NCBI RefSeq assembly: GCF_029946185.1
Contig: NZ_JAQSEA010000155.1
Span: 1-36,915 of the forward strand
DNA from: Prosthecobacter sp.
GTDB taxonomy: Bacteria > Verrucomicrobiota > Verrucomicrobiia > Verrucomicrobiales > Verrucomicrobiaceae
DNA length: 36,915 bases
Direction of reading: 5' to 3'
Every line of letters starts with the position of its first letter. The first letter of the stretch is position 1. A model generated the notes under the pieces. It made no database searches. It was not told the origin of the DNA and was given only the letters and a program-made list of their open reading frames with translations. Position numbers and translations under genes: made by a program. Shown here piece by piece: positions 1-8,305 of this stretch.

Positions 1-933
1 GAAGCTTTCACGCAGTTCCATGAGGCGTTTCTCCATGCTGGAGACCTGATTCTGCACGTGCTCGTGATTCAGCTCAACGGCTAGAAACCGGGCCACATCG
101 CGGTCACGTTGCGCAGCGACGCGTGTTTCGGAATGCTGGCGGATGGTTTGCAGCCGAGTGAGCTGCCCGCGCAACTGGCGCAGCTCGTTCTCGTAGGATT
201 CAAAATCGCGATAGCTCGCCACGACGTCATCCACCGGCACGGCTTCGCCCGGGAGGACGAAGCGGCGGCAAAAGTCGTCGAAGCTCTTCAGATTGGTGAA
301 CGACATCGCGCTCGGCAGCAGGCGGTCAAGAACCTCGCGATTGAAGTTGAGATGAGCGCTGTTGCTCATGTCGCGCAGGTATTCGCGTGAGGAGGTAAAC
401 ACTCGCCCGTTCCGGCTCTCGACGAGCTGGCGGAAGCCGAGGATGTCCAGCGTGCGGCGCTTGCCATCTTCGGCAGAGGTTTGGATGAAATCGCTCTTTT
501 CCAAGGCTCCCTGGCAGAAGAAAGGCGTGATGTGGCCGTCGTTCTCCGCTGTGTTGCGAAATTCGACACGCAGGCCCCAGGTCTCGATGCGCTTGCCATC
601 CGGCCAGACGAACTCCGCCGCGACGTAGGTAGTCACGCCTTTGTCATGGTAAAACTGGGGCTGGCCGCTTTCGGACTGCTGCTTCGTGTCGAGCAGGCAG
701 TAGCCCTTCAGGGTGCGGTCTGACTGCGCGCCGGTGGCGCTGCGGTTGAAGTGATGGCGTGCTTTTTCCGGCCCGACGAGCACCAGCATGAGCATGTCCA
801 TGAGGATGGATTTCCCCGAGCCGGTGACACCGGCGAGCACGAGATTTCCCTGCACGGGGAGCGTGTCCTGATAGCCATACCAGTTGATGGCATGCAGGCG
901 GGAGAGGCGAATGGCGCGGCTTTTGGTGCTCAT
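1..933 (-). CDS. jetC: JetC, SMC-like ATPase of a Wadjet system (N-terminal 311 codons, truncated by window edge)
   Basis: This is the ATPase motor of a Wadjet system, a MukB/SMC-like protein that in characterised systems extrudes DNA loops so that JetD can cut small circular plasmids (established). The frame is open from the ATG at 933 to the left edge with no stop. Residues 35-42 read GVTGSGKS, a Walker A P-loop, preceded by the INWYGYQD stretch typical of the N-terminal ATPase head of this family. From about residue 245 the sequence becomes Glu/Arg/Gln-rich and helical, as expected at the start of the coiled-coil arm. The start overlaps the jetB stop as ATGA, so translation is probably coupled. 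The ABC signature, Walker B and the second half of the arm lie outside the window, so completeness cannot be judged. Confidence 0.85.
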   Translation of the reverse strand, partial: MSTKSRAIRLSRLHAINWYGYQDTLPVQGNLVLAGVTGSGKSILMDMLMLVLVGPEKARHHFNRSATGAQSDRTLKGYCLLDTKQQSESGQPQFYHDKGVTTYVAAEFVWPDGKRIETWGLRVEFRNTAENDGHITPFFCQGALEKSDFIQTSAEDGKRRTLDILGFRQLVESRNGRVFTSSREYLRDMSNSAHLNFNREVLDRLLPSAMSFTNLKSFDDFCRRFVLPGEAVPVDDVVASYRDFESYENELRQLRGQLTRLQTIRQHSETRVAAQRDRDVARFLAVELNHEHVQNQVSSMEKRLMELRESF

Positions 934-1583
934 GCCTCCACCTCCTCTTCGGTGCTGGAAACGACGGCTTCACCACGGCTGAAGGCGTTTGCGGTTTCCG
1001 TCCACTCGGCCAGTTCACGGAATGGTACGACGCGGCGGATGGCGGGGAGGACTTCGATGCCGGAGTCTTCGAAGGGCTCTGCTGGCTGAAAGCGGATGAG
1101 ATTGAAACGAGCGGCCTGACGCAGGATCTCGCGCAGGCGACCACGGGAAATCTGGCCGATGGCATCTGAGAGGAGCTGGTCTTTGAGCAGTGCGTTCAAC
1201 TCCGCCACGGTCAGGAATGCCTGCGTTTCTCCCTCATCACGCCAGCGCACATCTCCGGCGTACCATAGCGCCAGCCAGATCAGCGTCGCGTCTTGCCGCA
1301 GATGCAGAACCATCGAACTGACACGCGGAATGGCCTGCACCATGCGTTCTTCATGCAGCAGGGCCACATCAAGGCCGGCAAGGGCGGCGGTTTCACGCAA
1401 CCATTCGAAATTTTGCCGGCACCAATTGTAAAGAGCGCTTTGGCCGCTCTCCAGACCAAGCAGGGAGCCATGCGCGAGCAACTCCTGCAGCGCCTCGGCT
1501 AGACGCGCGCGATCCTGATCCTGCAACCGGAGCAACGGCTCCGGCGCGGGCGCTTCATTGATGTTGGGGTCGGCTTCGGTCAT
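930..1583 (-). CDS. jetB: JetB, DUF4194-type kleisin-interacting subunit of Wadjet
   Basis: A 217-residue protein matching the DUF4194 (JetB) pattern: an acidic Pro-rich N-terminus, a helical middle, and a C-terminal winged-helix-like part with the conserved run around LRQDATLIWLALWY and a basic-hydrophobic segment near GRLREILRQAARFNLIRF. In known Wadjet and MukBEF/MksBEF systems this is the MukE/KITE-like partner that binds the kleisin JetA and the SMC JetC (established). Both ends are ATGA overlaps: its ATG at 1583 overlaps the jetA stop and its stop overlaps the jetC ATG at 933. This tight packing fits a complex made in fixed ratio. Assignment rests on the family pattern and the neighbours together. 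Confidence 0.85.
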   Translation of the reverse strand: MTEADPNINEAPAPEPLLRLQDQDRARLAEALQELLAHGSLLGLESGQSALYNWCRQNFEWLRETAALAGLDVALLHEERMVQAIPRVSSMVLHLRQDATLIWLALWYAGDVRWRDEGETQAFLTVAELNALLKDQLLSDAIGQISRGRLREILRQAARFNLIRFQPAEPFEDSGIEVLPAIRRVVPFRELAEWTETANAFSRGEAVVSSTEEEVEA

Positions 1584-3064
1584 TTCTTGATGAGGTCAAA
1601 ATGCTCCACGCGGGCACCGGGAAGGGGATCAAGCGCGATCTCACGCACGTCAGCGCGGCTGCGGGTGGATTCCAGCTTATAGGCGGCTTCATTCGACTCC
1701 GCATGGAGCATGAGGGCGATGAGTTCGGTGAGGTCTGCCTCGGAGGCGACGGGGAGATCGGCGCTGGAGATACGCGCGCCTTTTTCACCGGGCAGGCGCT
1801 TCACAAATTCATTCGCACGCCGCACGGAAAGTGAGTCACGCAGGGCGCGCTCCATGCCGCGCAGGCCTTCGTCGCGCTCGGCATCGGTGACCTCGTCATC
1901 CAGAGCGGCCTGCTCGCCCGCGACGCGGCGGGTTACCGGTGCATAAAGGCTGTCGAGTCCTGCGGGCATGCGGGTTTCGGGCAGGCGGAGTGCTGGAAGT
2001 TCCGGCAGTTCCCACGCACTGGAAAGGCGCTTTCCGGCGAGCATGTCATTCGCTTTCATGAAGAAGTCCCTGACCTCGCTGCGGCGCTCGCCGGTGACAT
2101 CTTGGAGATAGCGGAAACGTGAGAGCGAACGACGGGTGAAGTCGGCGGTGCGCCTGTCGATTTCGTCCGCCATCGGCTGGACGAGTTCGAGCAGGTGAGC
2201 GAGTTCATCCAAACGCTGGCGCACGCGGGCGCGGGCTGTTTCGGCGCTGAGGGTGGACTCGCGGCGCAGAAGTTCTGTCTGCATCTCCGCCATAGCGGTC
2301 GAGTCATCCTGCAAGCGTTCGCCGATGCGTCTCACGGCCTCGGGTAGGAGGGCGGGCAGGCGGGCGCGGATGAGCTCGGCATAGGCGCCGTGGGCGATCT
2401 GCTCGGCGTAGTCTTCAAACACTAGCGCGAGATTGCCTCTGAGCGTGTTTTCCTCCAACTGCCGACGCGTGAGGCGCTGCACGGATTTCTGCATGGTGCG
2501 CAGTTCGCCGAGGCCCTGGCGGGTGTTTGCCAGACACACGTCCACGGTTTGCAGCGGACGCTCGATTAGTTCTGGTTCGTTTGCCAGCATGGCGCAGACG
2601 GCGGTGAGCTTGTCTGTGAAAACGGCCGCTTCCGGGTGGGCGATCTGCCGCAGGGCGGCGATCAGCGTGGAGCCATGCGCATCGAAATAGAGCCGTCGCC
2701 GCCAGTCCTTGCGTGGTGGTTCTTCCAGCCAGCGGCAGCGGGAGAGATGATCGAGCACCCGGCGCGAGGTTTCACGCGGAGGAAGGGCTCCTGCGATTTG
2801 CTCGCCCTCGGCGTGAAATTCGTCTCCTTCGGGTTGGAATTCCGGATGCTTGGCGAGCACTTCGGCAATGATTTCAATGGCGTCCTCGCGCTCCAGGCCG
2901 TCCGGCTGTTCGGTGCACTCGCGATCCAGCGCATCCAGGACATCGACATACGTCGGGGCATTTTTGCCCGCCAGCAAGCGGAAGAACGCGGGATCGCGCA
3001 CTTCGCGGTAAAGGCTGGAGGAGAGGAGGTCGGGCATGAGCCGCCCATCATGGGGAGAGTTCAC
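1580..3064 (-). CDS. jetA: JetA, kleisin-like subunit of Wadjet (looks closer to the type II JetA family than to DUF3375)
   Basis: A 494-residue, highly charged, mostly helical protein and first gene of the jetABC operon. The N-terminus (about residues 20-130) has the layout of the type II JetA family: FFRLLAGKNAPTYVDVLDAL, then a helix-rich block and a winged-helix-like region ending in CRWLEEPP...RRRLYFDAHG. Residues about 170-330 are long amphipathic helices that could pair as a coiled coil. In characterised systems JetA is the MukF/kleisin-like bridge between the SMC heads (established). The gene is transcribed away from the large secreted-protein gene at 3200. ATG 3064 is the longest start; Met10 at 3037 is an alternative, and neither has a clear Shine-Dalgarno. 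The subtype call is from memory of the family pattern and is less certain than the JetA call. Confidence 0.78.
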   Translation of the reverse strand: MNSPHDGRLMPDLLSSSLYREVRDPAFFRLLAGKNAPTYVDVLDALDRECTEQPDGLEREDAIEIIAEVLAKHPEFQPEGDEFHAEGEQIAGALPPRETSRRVLDHLSRCRWLEEPPRKDWRRRLYFDAHGSTLIAALRQIAHPEAAVFTDKLTAVCAMLANEPELIERPLQTVDVCLANTRQGLGELRTMQKSVQRLTRRQLEENTLRGNLALVFEDYAEQIAHGAYAELIRARLPALLPEAVRRIGERLQDDSTAMAEMQTELLRRESTLSAETARARVRQRLDELAHLLELVQPMADEIDRRTADFTRRSLSRFRYLQDVTGERRSEVRDFFMKANDMLAGKRLSSAWELPELPALRLPETRMPAGLDSLYAPVTRRVAGEQAALDDEVTDAERDEGLRGMERALRDSLSVRRANEFVKRLPGEKGARISSADLPVASEADLTELIALMLHAESNEAAYKLESTRSRADVREIALDPLPGARVEHFDLIKK

Positions 3065-3199
3065 GGCGAGGCAACTGCCCGTCGAACTCCGCTATGGGCA
3101 TGGACGATCCCGCCCTCGGGGCCGGGGCGCGCAAGACATGCACCTTGGGAGGCGTTTCCGCGTGCTGCTCTTATTGTCAAAACGCCCAACGCCAACCCC

Positions 3200-6100
3200 A
3201 TGAAGACACGTCTCCTCATTGCTGTACTCTTCCTCGCCGCCGCCGCCGCTGTGCATGCTGCACCGCCGAAGAAGGAGGAGGGCATTGACCCGAACAAGCC
3301 GATCTCATTCTATAAGCACATCCGCCCGATTTTCCAGGCGCAGTGCAATGGCTGCCATCAGCCCGCGAAGAAGAAGGGCGAGTACATCATGACGGAGTTC
3401 GTGGCGCTGCTCAAAGGGGGCGAGGAAGGCCATGCGGTGGTGGCGGGCAAACCGGCGGAGTCCAATTTGCTGAAGCTGATCAAACCCGACGAAAAGGGCA
3501 AGGTAGAGATGCCACAGAAGGCCGACCCGCTGCATGAGACGCAGATCGTCCTGATTGAACGCTGGATCGCTGAAGGTGCGAACGATGACACGCCGCCATC
3601 AGCCAAGGTGCAGTACGACATGGCGCACCCCCCTGTCTATGTGAAGGCTCCGGCCATCACATCCATCGATTATTCGCCGGATGGTAGCATGATCGCGGTG
3701 GCGGGTTATCATGAGGTCTTGATTCATAAGGCTGACGGCAGCGGCATCGTGGCGCGTCTCGTCGGTCTGGCGGAGCGCATTCAGAAGCTGGCCTGGTCTC
3801 CGGATGGGAAGAAGATCGCGCTTACCGGCGGCAGCCCGGCGCGGATGGGTGAAATTCAAATCTGGGACGTGGCGGCGAAGAAACTCGAACTCTCCAAGTC
3901 GCTGACTTTTGACACGCTGTATGGCGCAAGCTGGTCGCCGGATGGCAAATTCCTCGCTTTCGGCTGCGGTGACAATGCGGTGCGCGCCATCGATGTGGCC
4001 ACTGGCAAGGAAACGCTCTTCATGGGTGGGCACAGTGACTGGGTGCTCGACACCGTGTGGGGTGTGGACGGCAAGAACATCGTCTCCTGCGGTCGTGACA
4101 TGAGCGTGAAGCTCACTGAGGTCACCACGCAGCGCTTTGTGGATAACGTCACCTCCATCACTCCCGGTGCACTCAAAGGCGGTGTGCAGGTGCTGGCGCG
4201 GCATCCGCTGCGCAATGAAGTGCTCATTGGTGGCACGGATGGCGTGCCTGCGATCTATCGCATGGAACGCATGACGAAGCGCGTCATTGGTGACAATGCG
4301 AATCTCATTCGCAAATTCCCCGGCATGGAGGGCCGCATTTTTGGCGTCGATTTCGCGCCGGATGGCAAGCGCATCGCTGCTGGTACCTCGTTTGAAGGAA
4401 CAGGGACGGTGAACATCTACGCCAGCGATTACGACAGCACCATGCCCGAAAGCGTTAAGAAGCTGGTGGAAACGGTGAACGGCAAGGGCAAGGAGCTGGA
4501 TGACTGGGTTGTCCAAGGCGTGAAGCAGCTCAGCAGCACGGCAATTCCCTGCGGCATCTTCAGCGTGACCTTCAGTCCCGATGGCAAAACCGTTGCCGTG
4601 GCAGGTCAGGACGGGCAGATCCGTCTCATCGATGCTGCCAACGGTGCCATCGCCAAGGAATTTGTCTCGGTGCCGCTGGTGATGGAAAAAACCCTCGCGG
4701 CTTCGGACGTTCTCGTGGACGACAGCGTGCGTGTGGTGATCGAGAAGGATCACAAGATCGAAACTTTGCACACTGGGCCGACGGTTGCCTCCATCGACGT
4801 CGAACCGACCACGATCAAGATCGGCAAGCCCACCGAGTACGCGCAGCTTCTCGTTACCGCTCGCATGAGCGACGGCACTCGCGCTGATGTCACACGCATG
4901 GCCAAGGTCACCGCTGCAAATATCGATGTCGTGGCCGTGAACGCCCGTGGCATGGTGCGCCCGGGCAAGGATGGTGCTACCAGCGTCAAAATCTCTTTCC
5001 TCGGCAAGACTGCCCACATCCCGGTGAACGTGAGCGGCATGAATGCATCTCTCCACCCCGACTACGTGCGCGATGTGATGCCGATTATGTCGAAGCTGGG
5101 TTGCAATCAAGGCACCTGCCACGGCGCGAAGGAAGGCAAGGCTGGCTTCAAGCTTTCGCTGCGTGGTTATGATCCCGTTTACGATGTGCTCGCTTTTGCA
5201 GATGATCTCTCCAGCCGGCGTGCGAACGTTGCCTCACCAGAACATTCGCTCATGCTGCTGAAGGCCAGCGGCAGCGTGCCGCATGAAGGCGGTCAGCTTA
5301 CGGTGCCAGGTGAGCTTTACTACGAGTCGCTCAAAGCGTGGATCGGCCAAGGTGCGAAGCTGGACATGAAGACGCCGCGCGTCACCAGCATTGAGTTGTC
5401 GCCGAAGAATCCGGTCATTGAGCGTGTCGGTGGTCGCCAGCAGCTTCGTGTTATCGCGCGTTATGCGGATGGCTATGTCAAAGATGTCACCGCTGAGTCC
5501 TTCCTCGACAGCGGCAATGGCGATGTCATCGAAGCGGACAAGAAGGGCCTCATGACCAGCCTGCGTCGTGGTGAGGCACCGATCCTTGCCCGCTTTGAAG
5601 GTGCTTATGCCGCCACTACCATCACCGTGATGGGCGACCGCACGGGCTTCGCCTGGAAAGAGCCGGAGAAGTGGAACAAGATCGACGAACTCGTGGCGCA
5701 AAAATGGCAGCGCATGAAGATCGAGCCGAGTGGCCTGTGCAAGGATGAGGAATTCTTCCGCCGCATTCATCTCGATCTCACCGGCCTGCCGCCAAAGCCT
5801 GAAGAAGTCATCGCATTCATGGCTGACAAGCGTGACACCCGCACCAAGCGCAGCGAGGTGGTGGACAAGCTCATCGGCAATCCTGATTTTGTCGAGCATT
5901 GGGCCAACAAATGGGCCGACATGTTGCAGGTGAACGCGAAGTTCCTCGGTGCTGAGGGTGCCGGCGGTCTGCGCACCTGGATCAAGCAGCAGGTGGCAGA
6001 CAACACGCCGTATGACCGTTTTGCGTATCGCATCATCACCGCCACAGGTTCGAACAAGGACAATCCGCCCGCGGCTTACTTCAAGACGGTGCGCACCGCC

Positions 6101-8305
6101 GAAGACATCAGCGAAAACACCACGCACCTGTTCCTGGCGACGCGCTTCAACTGCAACAAGTGCCACGACCATCCTTTCGAGCGCTGGACGATGGATCAGT
6201 ACTATGAGACCGCGTCTTACTTCGCGCAGATTGATCTCAAGGGTGATCCTGCTGCCAAGGGCCAGACCATCGGCGGCAGTGCTGTTGAAGGCGCTAAGCC
6301 GTTGTTCGAGATCGTCTCCGACAAAAAAGAGGGAGACGTGCTGCACCTGCGCACCAACAAGCCCGTCGCGCCGCAGGTGCCGTATGAGAATGAACTTGTG
6401 AGCAAGACGGCAAGCAGCCGGCGTGAGCAGTTTGCCACCTGGATGACGAGCCCGCAGAACGACTACTTCGCCATGAGCTACGCCAACCGCGTCTGGGGCT
6501 ACCTCACCGGCACCGGCGTCATCGAACCGCTGGATGACATCCGCGCCGGCAATCCGCCGAGCAATCCCGAACTGCTGCAATACCTGACCAACGAATTCAT
6601 CCAGAGCGGCTTCAATGTGAGGCACCTGATGAAGATCATCGCCAACAGCCGCACCTACAACCTGAGCCTCGCCACCAACAAATGGAACGAAGACGACAAG
6701 ACCAACTACAGCCACGCCAAGGCCCGCCGCCTGCCGGCTGAAGTGCTGTTTGACTCCGTCTTTGCCGTCACGGGCAGCATGCCGAACATCCCCGGCATGC
6801 CCAAGGGCACCCGCGCCGCCGCTTTGGCTGACGGTCAGGTCAAACTGCAGGATGGCTTCCTCGCCAACTTCGGCAAACCCGCCCGTGAATCCGTGTGCGA
6901 GTGCGAGCGCAGCAATGAGGTCAACCTCGGTCCAGTCATGGCCCTCATGAGCGGCCCGACTGTGGGCGATGCCATCAGCGATCCCGGCAACGCCATTGCC
7001 AAGCTGACCAGTGAGATCAAAGACGACCGCCAACTCGTCGATGCCATCTTCCTGCGCATCCTCAACAGCCATGCGAACGAGAAGGAAATCGACGCCGCCC
7101 TGGCCTCCATGAGGGAGCTCGATCCTGAGAACAAACAGCTCGCCGCTGTCCTTCAGGCCAAGGAGGCGGAACAGAAGCCGTTGATCGATAAAGCCGAGCA
7201 GGAGCGCCTTGCTGGTATTGATGCCGCGAAGAAGGAACTCGAAGCTTACAAGGTCAAGATGGCTCCCGAAATTGCCAAAAAGGAAGCTGCACGCAAAGCG
7301 GCCATCACTGCTGCGGAAGCCAAGGTGAAGACCGTTCAGGGCACCGCTGCGGCCAACCAGCCTGCGTGGGAAAATTATCTCGATCTCACCACGGAATGGC
7401 AGCCGTTTGATAGCCTCAAAGTACAACGCGCCGGGGGTGTCGAAAAACTCGAGCTTCAGCCTGATGGCAGCCTCTTTGCCACGGCCATGCCCGCAGGCCG
7501 TGAGACCACCGGAAACTACATGCTCATTGGCAAAACGACACTCTCCAACATCACGGCGATCAAGCTGGAGATGATCCCCGATGATCGTCTGCCCAGCAAT
7601 GGTCCAGGCCTGGCTACTGATGGGAACTTCGTCCTCGGTGAATTCACTGTCAGCACGGATCCGATGGATGCCAAGCGCAGCAAACGCGGTGGCGAAGCGC
7701 AGGTGCTGAAAAATCCGAAAGCCGACTTCGAGCAGGATAAGTTTGCCGTCACCGAAGCTCTCAAAAAGGGCAATCGTGACCGTGGCTGGGCCGTCAGTCC
7801 GCAGGGCGGCTTCCGTCATGAGGCGACCTTTGAATTCATGAAGCCCATTGCGCATGAAGGCGGTTCGCAGTTCACCATCGTGATGACCTCCAACTTCCAG
7901 AACGGGAAGTACAACCCCGGTCGCTTCCGTTTGTGGGTCACCACCAGCCCCGCGGTTCGCTTCGGTGTTCCCTCCGCCGTCGCCGCCGCGCTGAAGGCTC
8001 CAAAACGCACGCCTGAGCAAAATGCAGTGCTCACCCAGCACTTCCTCAACCAGTTCAAAGACTACCAGACACAGAAGAAGGTTCTCGCAAATGCACGCAG
8101 ACCACTGCCGGTGGATGCGCAACTCGTGGCGCTTGAAACCAAGCACACTGACAGTCAGAAGGCGATCCCGCTTGATCCCAAACTGGTACAGCTTCGGCGT
8201 GACGCCGGTCTGAGCCAGACCCAGCTCGGCAACAAGCGCCTGACGGCTGCGCAGGATCTGGCATGGGCTTTGATCAACTCACCAGCCTTCTTGTTTAATC
8301 ATTGA
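3200..8305 (+). CDS. Giant secreted multidomain protein: PSCyt1, WD40, two BIG2-like domains, DUF1549 and DUF1553
   Basis: A 1701-residue exported protein. The start at 3200 gives a signal peptide (MKTRLLIAVLFLAAAAAVHA, cleavage near residue 20); a longer open frame upstream overlaps jetA and is rejected. In order: a cytochrome-type CNGCH motif at 49-53; WD40-like repeats with recurring SPDGK at about 150-490; a BIG2-like domain at about 528-612; CNQGTCH at 635-641 (CxxxxCH, non-canonical); a second BIG2-like domain at about 727-812; DUF1549 at about 825-1015 with CNKCH at 985-989; DUF1553 at about 1074-1300; a Lys/Glu/Ala coiled coil at about 1315-1380; a beta-rich segment at about 1385-1600; and a C-terminal tail ending in WALINSPAFLFNH. 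These domains are hallmarks of planctomycete and verrucomicrobial secreted proteins of unknown enzymatic role, often next to DUF1501 genes. No DUF1501 gene is present here. Confidence 0.92.
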   Translation: MKTRLLIAVLFLAAAAAVHAAPPKKEEGIDPNKPISFYKHIRPIFQAQCNGCHQPAKKKGEYIMTEFVALLKGGEEGHAVVAGKPAESNLLKLIKPDEKGKVEMPQKADPLHETQIVLIERWIAEGANDDTPPSAKVQYDMAHPPVYVKAPAITSIDYSPDGSMIAVAGYHEVLIHKADGSGIVARLVGLAERIQKLAWSPDGKKIALTGGSPARMGEIQIWDVAAKKLELSKSLTFDTLYGASWSPDGKFLAFGCGDNAVRAIDVATGKETLFMGGHSDWVLDTVWGVDGKNIVSCGRDMSVKLTEVTTQRFVDNVTSITPGALKGGVQVLARHPLRNEVLIGGTDGVPAIYRMERMTKRVIGDNANLIRKFPGMEGRIFGVDFAPDGKRIAAGTSFEGTGTVNIYASDYDSTMPESVKKLVETVNGKGKELDDWVVQGVKQLSSTAIPCGIFSVTFSPDGKTVAVAGQDGQIRLIDAANGAIAKEFVSVPLVMEKTLAASDVLVDDSVRVVIEKDHKIETLHTGPTVASIDVEPTTIKIGKPTEYAQLLVTARMSDGTRADVTRMAKVTAANIDVVAVNARGMVRPGKDGATSVKISFLGKTAHIPVNVSGMNASLHPDYVRDVMPIMSKLGCNQGTCHGAKEGKAGFKLSLRGYDPVYDVLAFADDLSSRRANVASPEHSLMLLKASGSVPHEGGQLTVPGELYYESLKAWIGQGAKLDMKTPRVTSIELSPKNPVIERVGGRQQLRVIARYADGYVKDVTAESFLDSGNGDVIEADKKGLMTSLRRGEAPILARFEGAYAATTITVMGDRTGFAWKEPEKWNKIDELVAQKWQRMKIEPSGLCKDEEFFRRIHLDLTGLPPKPEEVIAFMADKRDTRTKRSEVVDKLIGNPDFVEHWANKWADMLQVNAKFLGAEGAGGLRTWIKQQVADNTPYDRFAYRIITATGSNKDNPPAAYFKTVRTAEDISENTTHLFLATRFNCNKCHDHPFERWTMDQYYETASYFAQIDLKGDPAAKGQTIGGSAVEGAKPLFEIVSDKKEGDVLHLRTNKPVAPQVPYENELVSKTASSRREQFATWMTSPQNDYFAMSYANRVWGYLTGTGVIEPLDDIRAGNPPSNPELLQYLTNEFIQSGFNVRHLMKIIANSRTYNLSLATNKWNEDDKTNYSHAKARRLPAEVLFDSVFAVTGSMPNIPGMPKGTRAAALADGQVKLQDGFLANFGKPARESVCECERSNEVNLGPVMALMSGPTVGDAISDPGNAIAKLTSEIKDDRQLVDAIFLRILNSHANEKEIDAALASMRELDPENKQLAAVLQAKEAEQKPLIDKAEQERLAGIDAAKKELEAYKVKMAPEIAKKEAARKAAITAAEAKVKTVQGTAAANQPAWENYLDLTTEWQPFDSLKVQRAGGVEKLELQPDGSLFATAMPAGRETTGNYMLIGKTTLSNITAIKLEMIPDDRLPSNGPGLATDGNFVLGEFTVSTDPMDAKRSKRGGEAQVLKNPKADFEQDKFAVTEALKKGNRDRGWAVSPQGGFRHEATFEFMKPIAHEGGSQFTIVMTSNFQNGKYNPGRFRLWVTTSPAVRFGVPSAVAAALKAPKRTPEQNAVLTQHFLNQFKDYQTQKKVLANARRPLPVDAQLVALETKHTDSQKAIPLDPKLVQLRRDAGLSQTQLGNKRLTAAQDLAWALINSPAFLFNH

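Follow-up and report, generated by a model that had tools for sequence, protein, structure and literature searches.

The window, a stretch of 36,915 bases from Prosthecobacter sp. that forms the whole of contig NZ_JAQSEA010000155.1 (C155), carries at its left end jetA, jetB and the first part of jetC. These very probably belong to a type I Wadjet operon, jetABCD, which is complete and chromosomal but was split by the assembly between C155 and a second contig, C253. The operon itself appears to be ordinary, a known four-gene anti-plasmid defence system. It would add a complete type I Wadjet to the branch with a DUF5716-type JetA, and the comparison with its relatives is the more interesting part.

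A preliminary description of the window had proposed a Wadjet JetABC operon cut by the edge, and this was borne out by the open reading frames (ORFs), their two ATGA overlaps, the Pfam and PADLOC matches, and the end of the contig at base 1. The features in the window are as follows.

1580-3064, minus strand: jetA, kleisin subunit, 494 residues, GTG start (PF18982 JetA, 1.5e-47; PADLOC JetA1, 2.8e-34)
930-1583, minus strand: jetB, KITE subunit, 217 residues (PF13835 DUF4194, 8.9e-10, over the cut-off; PADLOC JetB1, 3.8e-10)
1-933, minus strand: 5' part of jetC, SMC ATPase, residues 1-311, open at the contig end (PADLOC JetC1, 6.4e-41)
1580-1583, minus strand: four-base ATGA overlap of jetA and jetB (ORF coordinates)
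930-933, minus strand: four-base ATGA overlap of jetB and jetC (ORF coordinates)
808-831, minus strand: P-loop (Walker A) of JetC, GVTGSGKS, residues 35-42 (coordinates derived from residue numbers)

The DUF4194 domain of the second gene and the SMC/MukB-type P-loop of the third were as the preliminary description had given them. In Pfam, the N-terminal part of JetC also matched PF13555 AAA_29 (1.6e-11) and, slightly below the cut-off, the MukB N-terminal family PF04310 (1.1e-4). P-loop, SGGE and Walker B were all found, the N-terminal part in the window and the rest on C253. A JetC profile made from seven DUF5716-operon and two DUF3375-operon sequences, with the split JetC of the own genome left out, matched solved JetC in the PDB at 2.2e-157; as the two DUF3375-operon members are included, this match is no evidence for the DUF5716 branch alone. 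The window JetA is 93-97% identical to that of relatives L003, L004, L006 and L007 and 64% identical to that of L009. The A-B-C gene order recurs in relatives, and both four-base overlaps recur in L006, which, together with the strong purifying selection on JetABC given below, argues that the three-gene arrangement is not due to chance. The start of JetA is uncertain, and residue 10 is a possible alternative start because M10 is invariant in all six aligned JetA. On the plus strand, an open frame of 1889 codons (window positions 2636-8305) overlaps the opposite-strand start of jetA; its first part is probably non-coding, and the likely start of the gene is an internal, signal-peptide-like methionine.

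Nothing lies to the left of base 1 on C155, and the remainder of jetC and jetD sit on C253, from which we conclude that the operon was split by the assembly (genome G000; 6.19 Mb in 317 contigs). The JetD_C profile gave a single match in this genome, on C253, which carries the following.

C253 2-2443, plus strand: remainder of jetC, 813 residues, opening in frame and aligning to the JetC of L006
C253 2433-3674, plus strand: jetD, intact, 413 residues, overlapping jetC by 11 bases (PF09983, 4e-14; PADLOC JetD1, 6.6e-37)

The nuclease gene expected directly past position 1 was thus found, and the possibility also raised at the outset, that JetD is absent or replaced in this genome, is ruled out. 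The JetC part on C253 matches residues 319-1131 of the intact L006 JetC with 96.7% identity, the window holding residues 1-311. C155 and C253 are collinear on L006 DNA (aligned ends 13064/13089, C253 aligned from base 5) with a gap of about 20 bases, judged on L006; no exact overlap was reported in the comparison of the contig ends. The order A-B-C-D is contiguous in L004, L005, L007 and L009 and recurs in L006 with a frameshifted jetD, while L003 and L008 stop at contig ends within jetC and jetA, respectively. A gene encoding an NYN domain follows jetD on C253.

The encoded JetD appears to be an ordinary TOPRIM JetD that keeps the TOPRIM acidic residues, with E273, D318, D320 and E391 invariant in all nine aligned JetD. 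In a weak profile match (E 0.15) to PDB 8q72, E273 aligns with the mutated position 248 of JetD(E248A), the DxD and EQE motifs being aligned too. The JetD profile matched topoisomerase VI subunit A (E 7e-6), a likeness already published (part of PMC10586767). For a structure model of the L007 JetD (pLDDT 82, pTM 0.54, four sequences), two topoisomerase VI chains were the only PDB matches at E <= 0.001 (8e-6 and 2e-5), with TM-scores of merely 0.36-0.47. Passages of the same source describe JetABC as an SMC motor, with JetC as the ATPase, JetA as the kleisin and JetB as the KITE subunit, that senses small circular DNA, in the current model by DNA extrusion, whereupon the TOPRIM nuclease JetD cuts the sensed DNA and plasmids are lost (PMC10586767). 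By analogy with this family, the window JetABC would form such a motor sensing small circular DNA via extrusion, and the JetD of the own genome would cut the DNA so sensed, with loss of plasmids as the outcome.

Several points weigh against a complete and functional Wadjet. Seven JetC residues at the C155/C253 junction are missing from the assembly, so the continuity of jetC is inferred from relatives. Both JetA and JetD are far from solved proteins; for JetA, a PDB sequence search gave no meaningful match, and its structure model (pLDDT 49) is too poor for use; phmmer searches of the PDB with single sequences of JetA, the JetC C-terminal part and JetD gave no significant match. The window JetB does not have the IFDR motif that is known from the N-terminus of JetB in another system. 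Finally, jetD is frameshifted in L006, a metagenome-assembled genome (MAG) in which a sequencing error is possible, and JetD is lost in some relatives, so that function is not to be assumed from homology alone.

We also considered that JetABC is an MksBEF-like chromosome condensin with the nuclease as a decaying passenger, which we regard as quite unlikely. Consistent with decay, JetD changes faster than JetABC. Its omega (NG86; pairs share genomes and are non-independent) was 0.13-0.22 and above every JetA, JetB and JetC value of the same pair in 18/18 pairs, from a set excluding JetA of L005, the second half of L003 JetC (contig end) and the frameshifted JetD of L006/G090. The frameshift in this close relative, a 46-residue ORF left in G087 and the retention of JetABC without JetD in other lineages (below) point the same way. 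However, the JetD of the own genome retains its full length and every acidic residue, and its omega against relatives, 0.13-0.21 compared with 0.02-0.08 for JetABC, is well below 1; all four Jet proteins are under purifying selection, JetABC strongly. The own genome moreover encodes Smc, ScpA and ScpB for chromosome work, so its JetABC would be an addition, as for a defence system. The preliminary description had held that a MukF/MksF-type match with no JetD would mark an MksBEF condensin; JetA gave no MukF match at E <= 1 in Pfam, matching PF18982 instead, and jetD is present, whereas MksBEF and MukBEF operons are nuclease-free. The operon is accordingly predicted not to be MksBEF.

Instead, PADLOC model matches assign the operon to type I Wadjet with a DUF5716-type JetA: the best models for the four proteins are JetA1, JetB1, JetC1 and JetD1, where we read the suffix "1" in PADLOC's naming as type I. 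The type I features found are a JetA kleisin, a DUF4194 KITE JetB, the JetC motifs and a JetD adjoining jetC, the join being made via relatives. PADLOC gives DUF5716-type and DUF3375-type JetA one label, JetA1; the latter type also occurs in the same order (G078, G011). We give very little credence to an assignment to type II or III, or to a replaced effector. The sole argument for these is the preliminary impression of a type II-like JetA, which found no support; type II is rejected on the all-JetX1 best matches, JetC2 and JetD2 matches are far weaker than JetC1 and JetD1, and JetD appears ordinary.

JetA and JetD were surveyed in 141 genomes sampled from the order. The comparison rests on partly incomplete genomes and concerns the presence and absence of genes, from neither of which function is inferred. 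PF18982 matches at E <= 0.001 were found in 62 genomes, 53 of them over the cut-off, and JetD_C was over the cut-off in 46. Among the 53 JetA genomes, JetD was on the contig of JetA in 33, including one with a frameshift (G090), one whose contig ends within jetD (G005) and one with JetD in an over-long open frame (G064). It was on another contig, with the parts spread, in seven (G000, G093, G128, G044, G028, G062, G099). The split may reflect more than the end of a contig in G028, where jetA and jetB face each other and jetC and jetD lie together elsewhere, and in G099, where JetA, JetBC and JetD are on three separate contigs. Weak JetA matches in genus g10 (about 20 bits, below the cut-off) were rejected as Jet: they sit in a 416-417-residue ORF with a hydrophobic N-terminus, and the three loci inspected held no jet operon.

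Four further genomes have jetD at a separate locus (G045, G021, G136, G009). In G045, a genome made up of a single 8.2 Mb contig, jetABC lies at 2.78 Mb and jetD at 5.29 Mb; G021 and G136 share this arrangement, with jetD neighbours similar in size and order (Pfam run on the G045 neighbours only). The jetABC and jetD of G009 sit on separate contigs, each amid other genes. The stand-alone and reduced jetD are located as follows.

L031 9602-10843, L070 4742-6157 and L071 5070-6488: stand-alone jetD in three genomes of one genus
L130 2015-2176: jetD remnant of G087, an in-frame ORF of 46 residues where jetC ends, mostly JetD C-terminus, with neither domain

G087 (taken as L008) has a JetA piece with 86% identity to the window JetA; it lies outside the JetC tree described below and would be a further case of jetD loss beyond the five places in it. 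G110 keeps merely a 138-residue JetA piece.

No JetD was detected with a sensitive JetD profile (E <= 1) in seven of the 53 genomes (G006, G132, G094, G049, G131, G036, G040). This profile was run on 15 genomes; as a control it found JetD in G000, G045, G021, G136 and G122, the cut piece in G005 and the G087 remnant. In G049, nearly all of jetD is deleted relative to G139, with about 95% identical DNA flanking both sides and some 30 bases of the jetD start, with a stop codon, retained. G006 is a single-contig genome. The absences in G036 and G040 are weaker because these genomes are 86% and 89% complete, respectively, and the G040 contig stops about 0.75 kb past jetC.

A JetC tree was made from 46 of the 53 JetA genomes, using near-full-length JetC only and the own JetC with seven X in place of the residues missing at the contig junction. 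In this quick tree, which left 8 of its 43 inner branches open and gave long-row warnings for G122, G032, G004, G009 and G132, the JetD-less rows fell by eye into five places (G006 with G132; G094; G036 with G040; G049; G131), of which four lie within or beside JetD-bearing rows. A label test set the JetD-less rows against the four split rows only, and its "1 change" is no count of losses. G006 and G132 may never have had JetD. These two form their own clade with a JetB N-terminus unlike all others. Over the first 75 columns of 41 of 50 JetB rows, no difference between JetD-bearing and JetD-less members of the larger clade, such as would mark coupling to JetD, was visible by eye in the JetB N-terminus. 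No description of repeated jetD loss was found in open-licence PMC literature by title and start of abstract, which is weak evidence.

The core seems to be maintained where the nuclease is missing. Walker A, SGGE and Walker B were present in 46/46 JetC, JetD-less genomes included. For the JetD-less pair G036/G040, omega of JetABC was 0.08-0.12, within the range of JetD-bearing pairs (0.01-0.12) at its upper end, so these proteins are still constrained with slight relaxation possible; the pair is taken to share the loss, whether recent or old. Between G049 and its JetD-bearing sister, omega was 0.10 for JetC, 0.04 for JetA and 0 for JetB. No recognised nuclease was found downstream of jetABC in the five of seven JetD-less genomes tested (G049, G131, G006, G132, G040), three of the tested ORFs being unmatched and the downstream genes of G094 and G036 being left out. 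At these positions G049 has a GDSL lipase, G131 an unmatched 163-residue ORF and then an alpha/beta hydrolase, G006 dihydroorotate dehydrogenase 1.2 kb off, G132 an unmatched 241-residue ORF and G040 a single unmatched 150-residue ORF before the contig end.

Smc was detected at E <= 1e-20 in 114/141 genomes, and three of 38 genera lacked any Smc-bearing genome. The 27 genomes without it were 18 listed under g10, G011 and G031 (g16), G132 (g37), G092 (g19), and G080, G085, G097, G111 and G114. In G092 the absence is probably an assembly gap, since the genome has 730 contigs and retains ScpA and ScpB, and its genus-mate has Smc. G132, the sole genome sampled of its genus and 96% complete, has a JetD-less DUF5716-type JetABC with no Smc match at 1e-10 and no ScpA or ScpB match. 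The two g16 genomes carry a JetABC of the other type.

L099 4281-9850 and L108 4388-9936: DUF3375-type JetABC in genus g16, two genomes (G011, G031), families tested in G011

In G011 and G031, no PF09983, ScpA or ScpB match was found, PF09983 being the only JetD check made there, and Smc matches were merely weak and partial. Two observations disfavour a simple replacement of Smc by the Jet core. All 18 genomes listed under g10 (e.g., G026, G056, G010) gave no Smc, ScpA, ScpB or JetC match. Of the seven genomes with a DUF5716-type core but no JetD, six retain Smc, and one of these six, G036, had no ScpA or ScpB match. A passage in PMC10197239 states that no known condensin was found in Akkermansia muciniphila.

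These results suggest, without proving, that a Jet core can persist after the loss of its nuclease and serve as a condensin. We propose tentatively, as a possibility to which we give somewhat less than an even chance, that across the order the Wadjet core has been repeatedly uncoupled from its nuclease by deletion, reduction or relocation of jetD with jetABC intact under purifying selection, and that in at least one lineage (G132; the DUF3375-type G011 and G031) the JetD-less core, with no other condensin-like complex found beside it, took over from Smc-ScpAB. If true, the uncoupled core would illustrate in living bacteria how MukBEF-like condensins could arise from a defence system, as has been proposed; descent of MukBEF and MksBEF from Wadjet is put forward as speculation in part of a 2023 review (PMC10586767). 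Relatives with and without jetD, including the G049/G139 pair, suit a test of this idea.

Five relatives carry a nucleotidyltransferase-like gene in the interval that separates jetA from jetB.

L035 12033-12590, L078 4982-5539, L068 3449-4006, L079 3693-4250 and L065 7145-7783: nucleotidyltransferase-like gene between jetA and jetB

Its DUF6036 match is over the cut-off in G049 and G133 and slightly below it in G084; G139 and G105 have a 185-residue ORF at the same position. A profile from the G049, G133, G139 and G105 genes also finds that of G084, and its matches adjoin jetA in L044 (G008) and L088 (G013). The gene could possibly encode a toxin or regulator attached to Wadjet.

Among known systems, the JetABCD/MksBEFG systems of E. 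coli GF4-3, P. aeruginosa PA14 and C. glutamicum are called type I in passages of PMC10586767 and PMC10123090. The operon described here resembles them in its kleisin, KITE, SMC and TOPRIM nuclease genes in A-B-C-D order with overlapping frames, in its PADLOC JetX1 matches and in the JetD acidic residues. It differs from them in that its JetA belongs to the DUF5716 (PF18982) subfamily, not DUF3375, and has no meaningful PDB sequence match, its JetB is without IFDR, and its closest named relatives are Verrucomicrobia MAGs. With MukBEF and MksBEF it shares a related SMC/kleisin/KITE core, including the near-threshold MukB N-terminal match, but unlike them it encodes a JetD nuclease together with the core, in a genome that also has the canonical Smc-ScpAB.

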